64,000 bases of DNA from Hydractinia symbiolongicarpus (taxonomy: Eukaryota; Cnidaria; Hydrozoa; Anthoathecata; Hydractiniidae), in assembly GCF_029227915.1 (NCBI RefSeq), contig NC_079881.1, positions 27,257,501 to 27,321,500 of the forward strand, read 5' to 3'. The notes under the pieces were generated by a model, which worked only from the letters and a program-made list of their open reading frames with translations, did no database searches and was not told the DNA's origin. Of this stretch, positions 29,540-38,150 are shown in pieces. The stretch's first letter is position 1. Each line of letters begins with the position of its first letter. A program made the translations under genes and the position numbers.

Positions 29540-30384
29540 CATTTTTGAAAACAACAAGTCTCATGCGATTTAGTGGTGAAAAGATAATTTAAAAAATCGT
29601 TCTGGAAATGAGTTTACTCACAGAGTACTTTATTTGTATACATTCGACTATACGGGACAAGCCCGGGATTTACGGGAAATAGCAGGTTTTCGTTTGCCGG
29701 CGATTAAACCTCTTTCATTAGGCGTCTCATTAAAAATGAAAACATTTTTGAGAACTACAAGTCTCATTTGTTCTAGTGGTGCAAAAATAATTTGAAAAAT
29801 CGTTCGGGAAATCAGTTTACTCCTTGGGTACTTTCTTTATATACATTCAACTATACGGGCCAAGCCCGGGATTTACGGGAAATCGCGGGTTTTCGTTTGC
29901 CGGCGATTAAACTTCTTTTATTCAGCGTCTCATCAAAAATGAAAACAAGTTTAAAAACTACAAGTCTCATGCGTTTTAGTGGTGAAAAAATAATTTAAAA
30001 AATCAATCGGGAAATGAGTTTACTCCCTGGGTACTTTCTTTTTATACTTTTGACTATACGGGCCAAGCCCGAGATTTACGGGAAATCGCGGGTTTTCGTT
30101 TGCCGGCGATTAAACTTCTTTTATTCAGCGTCTCATCAAAAATGAAAACATTTTTGAAAACTACAAGTCTTATGCGTTTTAGTGGTGAAAAAATAATTTA
30201 AAAAATCGTTCGGGAAATGAGTTTACTCCCTGGGTACTTTCTTTTTATACTTTTGACTATACGGGCCAAGCCCGGGATTTACGGGAAATCGCTGGTTTTC
30301 ATTTGCCGACGATTAAACCTCTTTTATTAAGCGTTTCATCAAAAATGAAAACACTTTTGAAAACTACAAGTCTCATGCGTTTTA
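29540..30384. repeat. Array segment duplicated as the empty site at 36379-37223
   Basis: The four monomers just left of the transposon reappear at 36379-37223 at a constant offset of 6839 bp. Shared private markers include CTCACAGAGTACTTT, TTAGGCGTCTCATTAAAAATG, CTCATTTGTTCTAG, AAAATCAATCGGG and GCCAAGCCCGAGATTTACGG. On the far side of the transposon the offset is 1827 bp (nine monomers). The difference, 5012 bp, equals the 5008-bp element plus 4 bp. Confidence 0.85.
30381..30384. repeat. Left target-site duplication TTTA
   Basis: The monomer reads GCGTTTTA up to the element, and TTTA is repeated immediately after the element at 35393-35396. The uninterrupted monomer is GCGTTTTAGTGG, as at 37216-37227. 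A 4-bp TTTA duplication fits exactly. A 5-bp TTTTA duplication with later loss of one T on the right fits equally well in length. Confidence 0.85.
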
Positions 30385-30436
30385 CACGTTAGTTTCATTC
30401 CGCTGAAAACACGGAATGTTTTTATGCGCATGCGCA
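30385..30436 (+). repeat. Left terminal inverted repeat with 21-nt spacing
   Basis: The terminus is CACGTTA (30385-30391), then 21 nt, then a 23-bp block at 30413-30435 (starts GGAATGTT, ends GCGCATGCGC) that matches the inverted right end at 22 of 23 positions. The spacer holds a perfect 7-bp hairpin: CATTCCG (30396-30402), 9-nt loop, CGGAATG (30412-30418). The CAC start is shared with recombination signal heptamers and Transib ends. The remaining heptamer bases are not the RAG consensus. Confidence 0.8.
30425..30436. promoter_or_regulatory. NRF-1-type palindrome in the left terminal repeat
   Basis: TGCGCATGCGCA is a perfect 12-bp palindrome and a perfect match to the animal NRF-1 (alpha-Pal) site YGCGCAYGCGCR. 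It lies 409 bp upstream of the transposase start codon and is repeated in the right end. It could serve as a promoter element or as a transposase/host-factor site; binding is inferred from the motif alone. Confidence 0.5.
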
Positions 30437-30844
30437 AAATTTAAATTCTGCGGTTCCTCATTTCCGCCTCCCGGGCGAGCACCAGCGTGGCTGCACAACC
30501 CCTATTTATTTACTGAATTGTAGTAAATATTATCATAGAGCTAACTCTGGATTCTTTTAAATGACGCAAGTGTGACCAGGGCATCAGAAAATAAAAAAAA
30601 CATGGACTTTGAACGCTCAGGGAAATTTATAGCGCGAAATTCAAAACGAGTCTAAGAGACTGAAACAACACCAACTTTAAGGCCCCAAAACAGCACAAAA
30701 AATTTTTTTGCATATTAAAAGTGGACTTTTTAACCATAATTGATCTATTTTCTGAGCAAATCAAAAGAAATCAGGAGCCTAACAGTTTTTTTTCAAAAAA
30801 TATAAGCGAAATTGAAGAGGAGGGCTAGCTACAGGATATTCAAG
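30437..30844 (+). promoter_or_regulatory. 5' non-coding leader and probable promoter of the transposase
   Basis: This 408-bp stretch between the left terminal repeat and the start codon has no credible coding frame. Its first 60 bases are CpG- and GC-rich (TTTCCGCCTCCCGGGCGAGC near 30462), followed by an AT-rich CTATTTATTTACTG near 30502 that could act as a TATA-like box. The rest is AT-rich with A and T runs. No splice sites or start site can be fixed from sequence alone, so an untranslated first exon is possible. Confidence 0.4.
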
Positions 30845-31744
30845 ATGGCTGACCAGACGCACACAAACAACCTAACTAAGTTTTGTCGTATTTGTGCCAA
30901 AAAATTAGGGAAAGACAAAATGGACGTACGGAAATTGAGTGAAAGAATTAAGATTGCATTCTATATAGATCCAGTAAATGACGAAACCTGTGTACATCCC
31001 ACCAAAATGTGCCTAAACTGCTATTCAAAAATGAGAAATACTGAAACTAGAAAATCAACACTCTCAGCAGACTTTAAAGTGGCAGAATGGACCCCACATT
31101 CCTCCCTAAACTGTGTTACATGTGATCCCATGAAACGTGGCAGACACATTAAAAAAACCAATCCAGGTGGTAGGACAAAATTAGAAAACGCCAAATGGAC
31201 ACGAGATATTTTGCAAAAAATTCAGGACAATTACATTGACACTTTTCCACACAATATATACAATGTAGAAAATTTGGATAATGAAATAAATCCTCATCTT
31301 AAATTGTGCATATGCAATATTTGTAATAACATACAAAAAATTCCTGTATACATTCAAGAATGCCAGCATTCATTTTGCATGAACTGCATCCTGCCCAAGA
31401 TTGAGGGAAAACTATTGACTAGGACTATGTGTCCAGTGTGTGGCACTAATTTTCAAAAAATTGAAAAATCTGTAAACGTAGCTGACATGCTAAAGTGTAT
31501 TGTGATTGCCTGCAAAAATTCATGTGGTTCTACATTTATTGTGCATGATGAAAAGAGCAAACAAGAACATGAAAGTCTTTGCTTTCAAAAAACACCAACT
31601 GCCATCACTGTTAATGACATCTTCAGAATTAATGATGTTGAATCGATTCCAAGGGAAGTTGAAGATGCGACTCTGCATATTATTAAGAAGAAATTAGCCA
31701 GTAGCAGCTCGAAAATTGCAGAATTCAAATCTGGTGGTCCTCGG
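30845..31744 (+). CDS. RAG1L: Exon 1: N-terminal zinc region, RING and zinc finger (residues 1-300)
   Basis: This 900-nt exon ends in phase 0 at CCTCGG followed by donor GTAAGC. FCRICAKKL (13-21), the VHPTKMCLNCYSKM segment (50-63) and the EWTPHSSLNCVTC segment (81-93) parallel the RAG1 region before its RING, with Cys and His in the same order. The RING is C157-x2-C160-x12-C173-x-H175-x2-C178-x2-C181-x14-C196-x2-C199. In RAG1 this region has ubiquitin-ligase activity and supports dimerisation. C218, C223, C227, H242 and C246 follow at the position of the RAG1 zinc finger A. The exon reads on to a stop at 31768 if unspliced, giving a 307-residue RING protein without the recombinase core. Confidence 0.9.
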
Positions 31745-34700
31745 GTAAGCAGTTCTAAATTACAATAATTATATTTTCAAAATCATAAAACATTAAACTT
31801 GTATATACCTTAATTTTTCAGACAATGTTTTTAAAAATGAATATTTATTACAGCATTAAATTTTACTTTAGCCAATTTACATTACATCAACACCGAAAGC
31901 ATACAAAGCCAGTAGCATTGCATCACAACGTACCCTCAGAAATAGGAATAAACATGTTCAAAAAAACATAATGAATATTTCTGGCAGTGATGAAGTATCT
32001 GCTGTAAGCCAGACTGCTGTTCTGATACAGTCATTTGAACAAAAACAGAGAGTGGAAATTATAAAAAAGTCACAGATCCCACCAGTGGAGATATCTGAAG
32101 AAACCATGGTTGCTTTGAAAGCAGATATTGGAATACCATGGGAAAAACTGAAAACAATGGCTCGGTAATTTCCATTTTAAACTATTTCTTAAAAACAAAT
32201 TCATTTTATGATCATCTGCATGTATTACAAATGTAAATATTTTGATTACAAACATGTTTTAATCCCTTTAGTTGGTTAAGGACATTCAACATTAAACCAG
32301 CTGCAATCAACAAACAACGACATGTAGCACAACCATGGGCTGGCAATGAATACATTGTTGAGGATACACCTTTTACAATGGAATCAAATGACCACAAAGG
32401 AGTATATGAAGTTAGAACAGCACCCTGGTCATATGTAGCAGATCTTAAATCACACATCTTAGATCGTATGGATAAACTTCATGAGTAAACTTTTTTTATC
32501 TCTATTTATAAAAATTGTTGTTAAATTAAATTTTTGAATTAATTTCTTATTGTACTTATAGCGAGATATTAACAACCAAGACAAGAATTATATATAATTC
32601 CTATTTTAATTAGGAGCAACTTTGTGACGCATCCTAAAGAATTTCAGAAAGAAATACATTTAAAGATTGGTGGAGATCATGGTGGTAAATCTTTTAAAAT
32701 GAGTTACCAAGTTTGTAATGTGGAGAAACCAAACAAGAAAAGAAATACAGTGGTGTTTTCATACTTTGAGGCAAAGGATTACCGTGTTAATCTTAAAGTT
32801 GGTTTACAAACATTCAAAAGTCAAATTGACGAGCTTCAACTGAGCCACTGGAGGTAGATTTAACTTCATGTAAATCAAACCATCATGTAAATATTTTTTT
32901 AGATCATTCAAGTTTGTTTTCTTATTAGGGGATATCCAATCAGAGTTTTCATGTTTGGTGACTATGAATTTTTGTGTGCCGTTTATGGCCTTACTGGAGC
33001 AAATGGTAAATCTTATTACTTAATCGAAAGTGTTAAGCATATACCTGAAAACAGATGGAATTCAAAATGTAAGTTTTATTTTTAGGACGCCACTGTTGTT
33101 TATTTTGTAACATCACTTCAACTGAGATGCAGTTAGCAGATCGTGGAGCTTCAGAGTTTCGAACTTTAGATACTTTGAAGCGAGACTTTGAAAATTTCAA
33201 TGAGGATGGTGGCAATATTAAGAAGGCAAAGTTTTTCAACAATGTCATTGGTCAGCCTATGTTCAATATTCCAATAGATCAGGTATGTTAAAGTTGTTGA
33301 AAATTCAATCTAATAAAATATACAAAGGTTATTAACTCACTGTTTTTACAACCAGGTTGCTCTCCCTGTACTCCATATCTCTCTTGGAACTTTTTTGAAA
33401 TTCTTCAACATGCTAGAAGAAAAGTGTAGAATCATTGATTTAAAAATTTCAAAAAAGATTGCTGGTGTCTTCACCAGCAAAAACGATATTGAGGAATACA
33501 ACATGCTGCACCAGAAGGCCAAAGATCTGGAACATTGTATTGTTGATTGCACAGAAAAAATTGAATTGGTGAATGATGCTATTGCAAGATCTGTGATTGA
33601 CAATCCAGACAATGAAGAATTCATCAAAAAGACATATGAACCAAGACTAGAGTATCTTCAAACCAAATTAGTAAATAAGGTAAGTTTACAGTTACAAAGC
33701 TTAGTCTGAATGCTAACCCCCTTATTGGAAAAAACTTTTTATAAAAAAAATTAAAAAATAAAATCTAAATGAAAAAAAATATTTTGTAGGAAAAAGAAAT
33801 GGAAAAACTTTTAAGATCACCATGTTTCAAAAAAAGTTATGGGCCTTGTGTAAAAAAGTTGGATGAAATTTTGTCAAAGTTAAAAGTACAGCGGCAAGCG
33901 TATCATGGGAAGAGTTTTGTGGGAAACCACGTTCATAAAATGTTGAAGGTATATATATCATTATTATTTGGATTAAAATGTCAATTAGTATGTTTTCATA
34001 CCCTTCTCCTATATATATTTTCTTTGTATAGGTTGAAAACATTATCACACTGTGCAATTCATTGCCAATATTAATTGTTGGCCTTGGTTTTGCAAGTACA
34101 GAAATTCATATGGAAGCCATTGAAGTGTGCCAATCATTTAAACTCTTATTCCACAAATATTCGAAGTGCCACAATTTGATTAACGATTCACAAGTATTTG
34201 ACAAAGAACGACTCAGTGAATTAGGTAGACTTATTGTCACACTTTCAAATATTTCATATTGTTATCACATATAGCTAGCTATTTATTAGTTATGTTGCTT
34301 TAGCTAGTTAGTATCATGGTCTGCCAGTAGTATAGTCTGTGAATGTATATATGTATTTGAGTTCCTAAGATTTTTACAGCTGGCAAAATGTAAAAAACTG
34401 TGTAACACTGTTAAGGTCATCTAGGCAATGGAGCCAGCTATAGGATAAGTTTTAAGAATGCAATAAAAGTTTAAAGCTAGCTATACTCATTGGATATTAT
34501 CATTTCAGACCAAAGTATCATTGACTTAATGGCATACCTTAGAAATACGTGGCCAAAAGAAAGCATCACCCCAAAACTTCATTTACTGGAGGATCATGTT
34601 CTTCCATTCCTTAAAAGATGGAAAACAGGTCTTGGGGTGTATGGAGAGCAAGGAGGTGAAGGTATTCATGCAGAATTTAATTCAATAAAAGCGATTTACT

Positions 34701-34819
34701 GCAGAATGCCATCTTCGGTTGCCCGAGTTCACAGCATTCTCAAGGAACACTACATTCGCGTGCATCCAAGGTGTATAGAGATGAAGCCAGAGGCAAAAAA
34801 ACGAAAGAAAATAGAATAA
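30845..34819 (+). CDS. RAG1L: RAG1-like transposase/recombinase, 968 residues, 10 exons
   Basis: The coding sequence joins 30845-31744, 31872-32164, 32272-32484, 32614-32853, 32929-33005, 33086-33282, 33356-33679, 33790-33948, 34032-34224 and 34509-34819. All introns are GT-AG, every junction keeps frame, and the total is 2907 nt ending in TAA. ATG 30845 (AAGATGG, strong context) was chosen; the frame is open for 11 more codons upstream but without an ATG. Domains: Cys/His zinc region 14-93 (C14, C17, H51, C56, C59, H85, C90, C93); C3HC4 RING 157-199; zinc finger 218-246; basic linker 296-336; DDE core about 385-950. Candidate catalytic residues are D490, D560 and E912 or E916; zinc-binding C579/C582 and H890/H895 match the RAG1 pattern. 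A basic KKRKK sits at 962-966. Vertebrate RAG1 is slightly longer, about 1040 residues. The expected role is nuclear, binding the element ends and cutting and joining them. Transposase activity is inferred from the intact motifs and the flanking ends. Confidence 0.9.
31872..32164 (+). CDS. RAG1L: Exon 2: basic linker and start of core (residues 301-397)
   Basis: The acceptor TTTTACTTTAG precedes CCA at 31872; an in-frame stop just upstream (TAG at the acceptor) forces this junction. The exon ends in phase 2 at GCTCG before donor GTAATT. It encodes a basic stretch (KAYKASSIASQRTLRNRNKH, 310-329), then a helical-looking region and IGIPWEKLKTMAR (385-397). Exon 1's last residues GGPR plus this basic segment sit where RAG1 has its GGRPR nonamer-binding domain; homology there is uncertain. 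Confidence 0.82.
32272..32484 (+). CDS. RAG1L: Exon 3: core, before the first catalytic Asp (residues 398-468)
   Basis: Acceptor CCCTTTAG at 32271; the split codon CG|T gives Arg, followed by WLRTFNIKPAAINKQ. The exon is 213 nt, phase 2 to phase 2, and ends CTTCATGA before donor GTAAAC. No motif of known function is obvious. It corresponds in position to the dimerisation/pre-RNase H part of RAG1, which I infer from order only. Confidence 0.8.
32614..32853 (+). CDS. RAG1L: Exon 4: first catalytic Asp, D490 (residues 469-548)
   Basis: Acceptor TTTTAATTAG at 32613; 240 nt, phase 2 to phase 2, ends TGGAG before donor GTAGAT. LKIGGDHGGKSFKMSYQV (485-502) is a beta strand ending in Asp and Gly, as expected for strand 1 of an RNase H fold, matching RAG1 D600 in context. 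NTVVFSYFEA (514-523) is a likely further strand of the fold. Confidence 0.85.
32929..33005 (+). CDS. RAG1L: Exon 5: second catalytic Asp, D560 (residues 549-574)
   Basis: Acceptor GTTTTCTTATTAG at 32928; 77 nt, phase 2 to phase 1, donor GTAAAT. RGYPIRVFMFGDYEFL (549-564) is a hydrophobic strand ending in Asp, like RAG1 FIFRGTGYDEKL with D708. D560 precedes C579 by 19 residues, the same as D708 to C727 in RAG1. Confidence 0.85.
33086..33282 (+). CDS. RAG1L: Exon 6: CxxC half of the core zinc site (residues 575-640)
   Basis: Acceptor TTTATTTTTAG at 33085; 197 nt, phase 1 to phase 0, donor GTATGT. GRHCCLFCNITSTEMQL (575-591) carries C579-x2-C582 and aligns with the RAG1 YICTLCDATRLEASQ stretch, including the helix start after the second Cys. 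The rest is charged and rich in Lys, Asp and Asn. Confidence 0.85.
33356..33679 (+). CDS. RAG1L: Exon 7: helical insertion domain (residues 641-748)
   Basis: Acceptor TTTTTACAACCAG at 33355; 324 nt, phase 0 both ends, donor GTAAGT. It starts VALPVLHISLGTFLKFFNML (641-660), corresponding in order to the RAG1 [20 protein letters not shown] segment. It continues as a long charged, probably helical and partly coiled-coil stretch that separates the second Asp from the Glu, as in RAG1, Transib and hAT transposases. Confidence 0.83.
33790..33948 (+). CDS. RAG1L: Exon 8: helical insertion domain (residues 749-801)
   Basis: Acceptor ATATTTTGTAG at 33789; 159 nt, phase 0 both ends, donor GTATAT. Lys-rich, with FVGNHVHKML (791-800) at its end, which resembles in position the RAG1 NGNFARKLM segment. 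An unspliced reading through intron 8 reaches a stop at 34072-34074. Confidence 0.8.
34032..34224 (+). CDS. RAG1L: Exon 9: helical insertion domain (residues 802-865)
   Basis: Acceptor TTTCTTTGTATAG at 34031; 193 nt, phase 0 to phase 1, donor GTAGAC. Predominantly hydrophobic helices ending FDKERLSELG. Without splicing the frame runs into a stop at 34272-34274. This precedes the longest intron (284 bp). Confidence 0.8.
34225..34508 (+). other. Intron 9, 284 bp, AGCTA-rich
   Basis: The longest intron of the gene, GTAGAC to TTTCAG. It contains several AGCTAGCTA-type words (near 34272, 34312 and 34475), also seen at 30825 and 34952. These short palindromic words are frequent in some demosponge genomes, from memory. 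No second gene or RNA is evident. Confidence 0.6.
34509..34819 (+). CDS. RAG1L: Exon 10: HxxxxH zinc half and catalytic Glu (residues 866-968)
   Basis: Acceptor CATTTCAG at 34508; phase 1, ends TAA at 34817-34819. TPKLHLLEDHVLPFLKRW (886-903) contains H890-x4-H895, the spacing of RAG1 H937/H942. GVYGEQGGEGIHAEFNSIKA (908-927) aligns with the RAG1 WASEGNESGNKLFRRFRKM region. E912 lies 17 and E916 21 residues after H895, against 20 for E962 after H942, so either could be the catalytic Glu. The C-terminal KKRKK is a likely nuclear localisation signal. Confidence 0.88.
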
Positions 34820-35351
34820 CAATATATATAATATATATATACACAAGTTATATGGTTATTTATTAGTATCATTTGCATAAAATTTTCTAATTTTACGTAC
34901 CTTTGACTTTCACCATGTTCTTTTCCGATTTTTTCAGCAAAAAAATAGCCACAGCTAGCATGCATCTGCCTGTTGTCATAAACTGTTAGGACTTTGAGCT
35001 TGATGTTATCGCAAAGGTACATGTTTAAAGATGATAATAAAACTTGAGTTAGCATCTGATTAATTTTTTTACACCCTTATTCCACATTTTCTCTACACCT
35101 GTAAATTTTAAGGAAAAAATGTGCTCCTCGCCTCCGGCTTGATATTGTTCTGTCGCGTGGACTTGAATGTGATCTGTGGCTGCACTTGCCTTGGCAAGTC
35201 ATAGGGCTGCCAGACCATTAGGTCAGCGGATTTAATAATAATGATGTAATGTTTTAAAGGGTCGATAAAGTCAGCGAAAAAAACGTTTTTTATAAACATG
35301 AGAAACGTGCGCGCGCGCCATTTTAAAATGTAACAATGAACACGTTGATTT
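34820..35351. other. 3' untranslated region and right subterminal region
   Basis: It begins with an AT dinucleotide run (about 34822-34842), then ordinary AT-rich sequence with the candidate polyadenylation signal, and becomes CpG-containing near 35120-35330, with a GCGCGCGC run at about 35308-35318. No Kelch, PHD or other conserved coding segment is visible on either strand. The minus-strand open frame at 35108-35377 overlaps the terminal repeat and has no recognisable features. Confidence 0.6.
35036..35041 (+). terminator. Candidate polyadenylation signal AATAAA
   Basis: A canonical AATAAA lies 217 nt after the transposase stop codon and is followed within 25 nt by a T-rich stretch (TTAATTTTTTT). 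It is the best-placed signal on the + strand between the stop codon and the right terminus. Confidence 0.5.
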
Positions 35352-35363
35352 CGCGCATGCGCA
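35352..35363. promoter_or_regulatory. NRF-1-type site in the right terminal repeat
   Basis: CGCGCATGCGCA matches YGCGCAYGCGCR and mirrors the site at 30425-30436. Because it lies in the terminal repeat, it may be selected for transposition as well as, or instead of, transcription. Confidence 0.45.
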
Positions 35364-35392
35364 TAATAACATTCCACTGCGAAATGAACGTG
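35352..35392 (-). repeat. Right terminal inverted repeat with 10-nt spacing
   Basis: Read inward on the minus strand the terminus is CACGTTC (35392-35386), then 10 nt, then the 23-bp block (35375-35353) shared with the left end at 22 of 23 positions. The spacer is 11 nt shorter than on the left, about one helical turn. Confidence 0.8.
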
Positions 35393-35396
35393 TTTA
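35393..35396. repeat. Right target-site duplication TTTA
   Basis: TTTA follows the terminal AACGTG and precedes GTGGTGAAAA, restoring the monomer sequence. It pairs with 30381-30384. One T fewer than the left-flank TTTTA run is present here. Confidence 0.85.
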
Positions 35397-38150
35397 GTGG
35401 TGAAAAAATAATTTAAAAAATCGTTCGGAAAATGAGTTTACTCCCTGGGTACTTTCTTTGTATACTTTTGACTATACGGGCCAAGCCCGGGATTTACGGG
35501 AAATGGCGGGTTTTCGTTTGCCGGCGATTAAACTTCTTTTAATCAGCGTCTCATCAAAAATGAAAACATTTTTGAAAACTACAAGTCTCATGGGCTTTAG
35601 TGGTTAAATAATAATTTAAAAAATCGTTTGGGAAATGAGTTTACTCCCTGGGTACTTTCTTTGTATACTTTTGACTATACGGGCCGAGTCTGGGATTTAC
35701 GGGAAATCGCAGGTTTTCGTTTGCCGGCGATTAAACTTCTTTTATTCAGCCTCTCATCAAAAATGAAAACATTTTTGAAAACAACAAGTCTCATGCGATT
35801 TAGTGGTGAAAAGATAATATAAAAAATCGTTCTGGAAATGAGTTTACTCACAGGGTACTTTCTTTGTATACTTTTGACTATACGGGCCAAGCCCGGGATT
35901 TACGGGAAATGGCGGGTTTTCGTTTGCCGGCGATTAAACTTCTTTTATTCAGCGTCTCATCAAAAATGAAAACATTTTTGAAAACTACAAATCTCATGGG
36001 CTTTAGTGGTTAAATAATAATTTAAAAAATCGTTCGGGAAATGAGTTGACTTCCTGGGTACTTTCTTTGTATACTTTTGACTATACGGGCCAAGCCCGGG
36101 ATTTACGGGAAATCGCGGGTTTTCGTTTGCCGGCGATTAAACTTCTTTTATTCAGCCTCTCATCAAAAATGAAAACATTTTTAAAAACTACAAGTCTTAT
36201 GCGTTTCAGTGGTGAAAAAAAAATTTAAAAAATCGTTCGGGAAATGAGTTTACTCCCTGGGTACTTTCTTCGTGTACCTTCGACTACACGGGCCAAGCCC
36301 GGGATTTAGGGGAAATCGCTGGTTTTCGTTTGCCGGCGATTAAACTTCTTTTATTCAGCGTCTCCTCAAAAATGAAAACAAGTTTGAAAACTACAAGTCT
36401 CATGCGTTTTAGTGGTGAAAATATAATTTAAAAAATCGTTCTGGAAATGAGTTTACTCACAGAGTACTTTCTTTGTATACATTCGACTATACGGGACAAG
36501 CCCGGGATTTACGGGAAATCGCAGGTTTTCGTTTGCCGGCGATTAAACCTCTTTCATTAGGCGTCTCATTAAAAATGAAAACATTTTTGAGAACTACAAG
36601 TCTCATTTGTTCTAGTGGTGCAGAAATAATTTGAAAAATCGTTCGGGAAATCAGTTTACTCCTTGGGTACTTTCTTTATATACATTCAACTATACGGGCC
36701 AAGCCCGGGATTTACGGGAAATCGCGGGTTTTCGTTTGCCGGCGATTAAACTTCTTTTATTCAGCGTCTCATCAAAAATGAAAACAAGTTTAAAAACTAC
36801 AAGTCTCATGCGTTTTAGTGGTGAAAAAATAATTTAAAAAATCAATCGGGAAATGAGTTTACTCCCTGGGTACTTTCTTTTTATACTTTTGACTATACGG
36901 GCCAAGCCCGAGATTTACGGGAAATCGCGGGTTTTCGTTTGCCGGCGATTAAACTTCTTTTATTCAGCGTCTCATCAAAAATGAAAACATTTTTGAAAAC
37001 TACAAGTCTTATGCGTTTTAGTGGTGAAAAAATAATTTAAAAAATCGTTCGGGAAATGAGTTTACTCCCTGGGTACTTTCTTTTTATACTTTTGACTATA
37101 CGGGCCAAGCCCGGGATTTACGGGAAATCGCTGGTTTTCATTTGCCGACGATTAAACCTCTTTTATTAAGCGTTTCATCAAAAATGAAAACACTTTTGAA
37201 AACTACAAGTCTCATGCGTTTTAGTGGTGAAAAAATAATTTAAAAAATCGTTCGGAAAATGAGTTTACTCCCTGGGTACTTTCTTTGTATACTTTTGACT
37301 ATACGGGCCAAGCCCGGGATTTACGGGAAATGGCGGGTTTTCGTTTGCCGGCGATTAAACTTCTTTTAATCAGCGTCTCATCAAAAATGAAAACATTTTT
37401 GAAAACTACAAGTCTCATGGGCTTTAGTGGTTAAATAATACTTTAAAAAATCGTTCGGGAAATGAGTTTACTCCCTGGGTACTTTCTTTGTATACTTTTG
37501 ACTATACGGGCCGAGTCTGGGATTTACGGGAAATCGCAGGTTTTCGTTTGCCGGCGATTAAACTTCTTTTATTCAGCCTCTCATCAAAAATGAAAACATT
37601 TTTGAAAACAACAAGTCTCATGCGATTTAGTGGTGAAAAGATAATATAAAAAATCGTTCTGGAAATGAGTTTACTCACAGGGTACTTTCTTTGTATACTT
37701 TTGACTATACGGGCCAAGCCCGGGATTTACGGGAAATGGCGGGTTTTCGTTTGCCGGCGATTAAACTTCTTTTAATCAGCGTCTCATCAAAAATGAAAAC
37801 ATTTTTGAAAACTACAAGTCTCATGGGCTTTAGTGGTTAAATAATAATTTAAAAAATCGTTCGGGAAATGAGTTGACTTCCTGGGTACTTTCTTTGTATA
37901 CTTTTGACTATACGGGCCAAGCCCGGGATTTACGGGAAATCGCGGGTTTTCGTTTGCCGGCGATTAAACTTCTTTTATTCAGCCTCTCATCAAAAATGAA
38001 AACATTTTTAAAAACTACAAGTCTTATGCGTTTCAGTGGTGAAAAAAAAATTTAAAAAATCGTTCGGGAAATGAGTTTACTCCCTGGGTACTTTCTTCGT
38101 ATACCTTCGACTACACGGGCCAAGCCCGGGATTTATGGGAAATCGCTGGT
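35397..38150. repeat. Higher-order duplication at 1827-bp offset (9 monomers)
   Basis: The array from 35397 recurs from 37224. Shared markers in order are GTTAAATAATAATTTAAA or a single-base variant, GAAAACAACAAGTCTCATG, AAAGATAATATAAAAAATC, GAGTTGACTTCCTGGG and TATGCGTTTCAGTGG. The copies diverge near 38130, where the first has ATTTAGGGGAAATCGC and the second ATTTATGGGAAATCGC followed by a different monomer. Confidence 0.8.
37216..37227. other. Paralogous empty insertion site
   Basis: GCGTTTTAGTGG at this position is the uninterrupted equivalent of the transposon junctions. Alignment to the left flank has offset 6839 and to the right flank 1827, so the difference gives a net gain of 5012 bp at the occupied site. 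Confidence 0.85.

Follow-up and report, generated by a model that had tools for sequence, protein, structure and literature searches.

Chapaev elements, as characterized in PMC4079192, carry target site duplications of 3-4 base pairs (bp), termini of the CAC/GTG type and a transposase bearing the motifs C(2)C, LH and H(4)H. In a survey of the RNase H-like superfamily, the putative Chapaev transposases are represented by DUF1280 and fall into one clade with RAG1 (PMC3985635). Furthermore, Kapitonov and Koonin (2015, PMC4411706) describe the Chapa zinc domain present in Chapaev elements as a truncated N-terminal part of RAG1, report two Chapaev subgroups in which this domain is followed by a RING finger, as in RAG1, and infer a common ancestor that already carried these domains in fusion with the catalytic core. 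The RAG1L proteins of molluscs and amphioxus are reported to carry N-terminal zinc motifs and a RING-containing domain on a RAG1 core (PMC7204232). The locus described here lies in a stretch of 64,000 nucleotides from Hydractinia symbiolongicarpus (contig NC_079881.1, positions 27,257,501 to 27,321,500 of the forward strand), referred to below as the window, with position 1 as its first letter. The feature at its centre is, with high probability, one complete, recently inserted and probably autonomous cut-and-paste DNA transposon of the Chapaev superfamily (CMC/CMCT), whose sole recognised gene is a ten-exon transposase. The original prediction for this stretch had found the gene itself and missed the mobile element (30385-35392) that surrounds it.

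The limits of the transposon are readily apparent from its position inside a satellite array with a unit of about 203 bp, which fills the window from 1 to 30384 and from 35393 to 64000. When the window is tiled at 300 bp, 197 of the 214 tiles are covered to at least 90% by other satellite copies, and the remaining 17 all fall within 30301-35400; therefore, a single non-satellite block breaks the array, a statement that holds at the 300-bp resolution of the tiling. The block starts with CACGTT at 30385 and ends with AACGTG at 35392, and the inner 28-bp blocks of its two ends are identical at 26 of 28 bases (18 at best in 60 shuffles). The target site duplication was evaluated by joining the 150-bp flanks after removal of 0-7 bp of putative duplication and comparing the product with the rest of the array. 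Ungapped empty-site matches account for 212 of the 287 spanning alignments when 4 bp are removed and for none of the 287 at every other length; the best match with 4 bp removed is 100% identical over 296 bp. When the flanks are extended to about 600 bp, 1194 of 1196 bp align to the best empty site (36624-37817) with three mismatches and no gap. Consequently, the insertion produced a 4-bp duplication, TTTA. The best-scoring match decreases with longer flanks, to 96.4% (1000 bp on each side), 95.6% (2000 bp) and 94.2% (4000 bp), which is expected because the array copies differ from one another. The insertion is recent relative to the turnover of the array, though exchange among array copies could make it look younger.

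The gene inside the transposon is composed of ten exons between 30845 and 34819, which join to 968 amino acids (aa) and a terminal stop codon with no internal stop, and all nine introns start with GT and end with AG. Because the exon boundaries were picked by eye to give GT-AG introns and a frame free of stops, these two features arise partly by construction, and for the same reason the strongest support for the model is the presence in the joined frame of three Pfam families, RAG1_imp_bd, RING and DUF1280, in that order and each above its curated cut-off. The other frames of the joined sequence contain 58 and 87 stops (forward) and 48, 32 and 61 stops (reverse), and 500 single-base shuffles give a mean of 71.9 stops with a minimum of 51, a comparison that does not allow for the choice of boundaries. 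When the frame is read on into the introns, a stop is met in eight of the nine; intron 8 (83 bases) is stop-free, but its length is not divisible by three. At the level of the sequence, the joined ten-exon gene is confirmed as real.

Regarding a possible partner gene, none of the 13 reverse-strand open reading frames of at least 60 aa in the transposon, all of which were searched against Pfam, is RAG2-like, with no RAG2, Kelch or PHD family retrieved. Two of the 13 give weak matches, all below cut-off and none RAG2-like; one frame that runs into the satellite was trimmed at the transposon end before the search. Three forward open reading frames of at least 60 aa outside the gene frame, two shorter upstream ones, and exons 7 and 10 give Pfam matches only below cut-off.

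The N-terminal zinc region of the transposase is homologous to that of RAG1. The top PDB match of residues 1-135 is the RAG1 chain 21wb_A (E 1.2e-5), best over aa 30-99, and the two sequences line up at the HPT..C..C and W.PH....C..C signatures; an FCRIC stretch aligns with the same chain too, and by itself is too weak to count. With the whole protein as query, RING proteins lead the PDB matches and the RAG1 N-terminal chain 21wb_A ranks 16th (E 0.0053). The RING part retrieves numerous RING proteins, with BMI-1 and BRCA1 near the top, and because no RAG1 chain occurs among the best 60 of its 77 PDB matches, this RING is, as far as shown, not specifically that of RAG1. Behind it lies a Cys/His cluster (C218 to C246; 31496-31582) to which no Pfam family matches and which could correspond to the zinc finger behind the RING in RAG1. 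The peptide GGPRP (aa 297-301), encoded across the exon 1/2 junction (31733-31744 and 31872-31874), resembles GGRPR, a motif in the nonamer-binding domain of RAG1, and is considered a lead only. The AlphaFold model of exon 1 alone has a mean predicted local distance difference test score of 31.2, with 300 of 300 residues below 50.

The core, in turn, is matched by DUF1280 over aa 323-544 (E 6.8e-15; 55.7 bits versus a cut-off of 25), which places the transposase in the Chapaev protein family, and the Pfam RAG1 core family gives no match in the joined protein at E up to 10. The remaining Chapaev hallmarks are present as well: the duplication TTTA falls within the 3-4 bp range, the termini are CAC/GTG, and the motifs C(2)C (C579/C582), LH (L646-H647) and H(4)H (H890/H895) accompany a candidate catalytic Asp-Asp-Glu (DDE) triad formed by D490, D560 and E916 or E912. 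The catalytic and zinc residues were assigned by motif and spacing, and their intervals were compared with those between the mouse RAG1 residues D600, D708, C727, H942 and E962 (PMC4914335). D560 and C579 are 19 residues apart, the same distance as D708-C727 in mouse RAG1, and H895-E916 spans 21 residues versus 20 for H942-E962.

Collectively, these findings agree with much of what the original prediction had stated: ten exons giving 968 codons in one stop-free frame, an N-terminal Cys/His region homologous to that of RAG1 followed by a RING, and DDE-type and C2/H2 zinc motifs in the core, here at candidate residues. Its remark that no RAG2 partner is present holds for the 13 reverse-strand frames, and the Pfam profile comparison keeps the core, through DUF1280, inside the CMC group that it had named, without a match to the Pfam RAG1 core. 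Its description of a RAG1-like gene is correct for the RAG1-type N-terminus and has to be replaced for the gene as a whole, which, from the DUF1280 core and the 4-bp duplication, is a Chapaev transposase within its own transposon and not a RAG1 gene.

Several observations weigh against the Chapaev assignment. No second copy of the transposon is found within the window, so its boundaries rest on a single insertion inside the array. The core from about residue 339 retrieves nothing from the PDB at E up to 10 (the query being one residue short near its start), D490 and D560 are separated by 70 residues versus 108 for D600-D708 of RAG1, and the catalytic Glu could be E912 instead of E916. According to PMC12730594, C(2)C and H(3-4)H are common to CACTA, Mirage, Transib and RAG1; since these motifs are not unique to Chapaev, the assignment is carried by DUF1280 and by the length of the target site duplication. 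It was made by profile, motifs, ends and duplication, with named Chapaev elements compared by description only. Peptide-pattern scans of viral contigs (8, 6 and 17 matching stretches) and of bacterial and archaeal contigs (42 matching stretches) confirmed no relative, both being a poor place to look for an animal transposon; one DNA-pattern scan of viral contigs gave 0 matches.

A rival explanation is that the locus is a transposon of the RAG1L/Transib clade, or a domesticated RAG1L gene, whose RAG2L partner has been lost. Such an origin would fit the RAG1 match of the N-terminal region, the C2/H2 zinc spacing close to that of RAG1 and the termini starting with CAC, as in RAG-like elements (PMC7204232). 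It is nonetheless very improbable. The strong DUF1280 match stands against the missing Pfam RAG1 core match, and the core finds no PDB counterpart even though the library includes near-full-length RAG1 chains. The single insertion seen here has a 4-bp duplication, in contrast to the 5 bp that, according to PMC7204232, protostome RAG-like elements produce without exception and that prevail in ProtoRAG, Transib and RAG. The terminal repeats and the duplication further speak against domestication at this locus. On the DUF1280 core, the 4-bp duplication and the lack of a RAG1 core match, a RAG1L element without RAG2 was rejected.

An even smaller probability attaches to a Chapaev3-type element in place of a classical Chapaev. 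Chapaev3 is described as a sublineage of Chapaev (PMC12730594), and the Chapa domain is reported in it too (PMC4411706). Against it, PMC4079192 gives 3-bp TWA duplications for the Chapaev3 elements that it examined and here only 4 bp fits, on which basis Chapaev3 was rejected. Finally, a host gene built by exon shuffling and lying by chance between satellite blocks, in favour of which ten exons and a long intact frame could be quoted, is hardly credible and was rejected in view of the inverted repeats exactly at the junctions, the CAC/GTG ends, the 4-bp duplication with its ungapped empty site and the match to a transposase family.

Read as a Chapaev transposon, the element most closely resembles the Chapa and RING subgroups of PMC4411706, compared by description only, in having a RAG1-type zinc region, then a RING, in a DDE-core transposase, and it shares with Chapaev elements generally (PMC4079192) the CAC/GTG ends and a duplication within 3-4 bp. 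With jawed-vertebrate RAG1 it has in common the N-terminal zinc region, the RING, the D/D/E residues with C(2)C and H(4)H, and two nearly equal spacings. It differs from jawed-vertebrate RAG1 in that its core is not recognisable as RAG1 by sequence, the D490-D560 interval is shorter, no RAG2 was found among the 13 reverse-strand frames, the gene is still borne by a mobile element and the duplication is 4 bp. Similarly to the ProtoRAG/RAG1L-RAG2L elements of amphioxus and molluscs, both RAG1 halves are contained in one protein and the termini are CAC, whereas a RAG2L partner and duplications that mostly measure 5 bp are reported for those elements (PMC7204232). The Aplysia N-RAG-TP is likewise described as a mobile element, with a protein that resembles the N-terminus of RAG1 (PMC8355894, PMC2996935). 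The comparison with it covers that N-terminus; the Chapaev transposon has a catalytic core too.

The element is consequently a new member of Chapaev, in which the combination of zinc region and RING has already been published and is not new. The view in the original prediction that both RAG1 halves rarely occur together was overstated, because two Chapaev subgroups (PMC4411706) and the amphioxus and mollusc RAG1L proteins (PMC7204232) had already been reported with both. The published account, which already places this set of domains in transposons outside the RAG lineage, is unchanged. Two details are noteworthy, the recent insertion and, in one copy only, an 11-bp offset between the ends. 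An intact-looking, recent Chapaev with both a RAG1-type N-terminus and a core is a candidate for testing activity and the roles of the N-terminal region and the RING.

In the most likely mechanism, the transposase would bind both terminal repeats, probably through the zinc region at its N-terminus and the stretch preceding the core. Judging from family and motifs, the RNase H-like DDE core (D490/D560/E916), together with a zinc site formed by C579/C582 and H890/H895, would cut the CAC/GTG ends, and the excised transposon would join the target DNA at positions 4 bp apart, giving the TTTA that is observed on each side. The RING probably serves as a ubiquitin ligase or a dimerisation module by analogy with RAG1; PMC3124419 reports ligase activity for the RAG1 RING.

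The two ends of the transposon are not equivalent: counted from the terminus, the inner 28-bp block begins at base 29 on the left and at base 18 on the right, an offset of 11 bp, about one helical turn, in this one copy. The offset is reminiscent of the difference between the 12 and 23 spacers of V(D)J signals (PMC3124419) but, seen in a single copy, may be due to chance or a small insertion. It would be a long shot to suppose that the Chapaev transposase pairs unequal ends in a manner analogous to the 12/23 rule; if it did, the end asymmetry and the RAG1 domain layout could both be older than the divergence of Chapaev from RAG/Transib. Short dyads were seen by eye near both termini, CATTCCG...CGGAATG at 30396-30418 on the left and CATTTC...GGAATG at 35370-35386 on the right. 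The palindrome GCGCATGCGC is present in both inner terminal-repeat blocks.

Table 1. Positions, in window coordinates, of the Chapaev transposon, its ends and empty site, and the parts of its transposase gene.
Feature	Coordinates	Strand	Basis or remarks
Whole transposon	30385..35392	+	5008 bp; termini and empty-site comparison
Left target site duplication copy, TTTA	30381..30384	.	Trial-length empty-site comparison
Right target site duplication copy, TTTA	35393..35396	.	Trial-length empty-site comparison
Left terminal inverted repeat	30385..30440	+	CACGTT outermost, 28-bp block further in at 30413-30440 (bases 29-56 counted from the terminus)
Right terminal inverted repeat	35348..35392	-	CACGTT outermost, 28-bp block further in at 35348-35375 (bases 18-45 counted from the terminus)
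Paralogous empty site within the array	36624..37817	+	99.75% versus joined flanks over 1194 bp, ungapped
RAG1_imp_bd match, aa 35-110	30947..31174	+	Pfam E 9.7e-9
RING finger (zf-C3HC4), aa 157-199	31313..31441	+	Pfam E 7.6e-6
Exon 1, aa 1-300	30845..31744	+	RAG1-type N-terminal zinc region, RING, subsequent Cys/His cluster
Exon 2	31872..32164	+	Joined frame
Exon 3	32272..32484	+	Joined frame
Exon 4	32614..32853	+	Putative first catalytic Asp D490 at 32675-32677
Exon 5	32929..33005	+	Putative second catalytic Asp D560 at 32960-32962
Exon 6	33086..33282	+	C(2)C motif C579/C582 at 33097-33108
Exon 7	33356..33679	+	LH motif, aa 646-647, at 33371-33376
Exon 8	33790..33948	+	Joined frame
Exon 9	34032..34224	+	Joined frame
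Exon 10	34509..34819	+	H(4)H H890/H895 at 34580-34597; putative Glu E916 at 34658-34660 (alternative E912); stop codon

Concerning the surrounding array, the repeat-period analysis reports it over the whole window without marking the transposon, and a period of 406 bp scores higher than the unit itself. Long near-identical stretches occur within the array, for example 1194 bp at 99.75%. The ratio of observed to expected CpG is 0.42 in the transposase coding sequence, 0.13 in its introns and 1.52 in the satellite to the left of the transposon.
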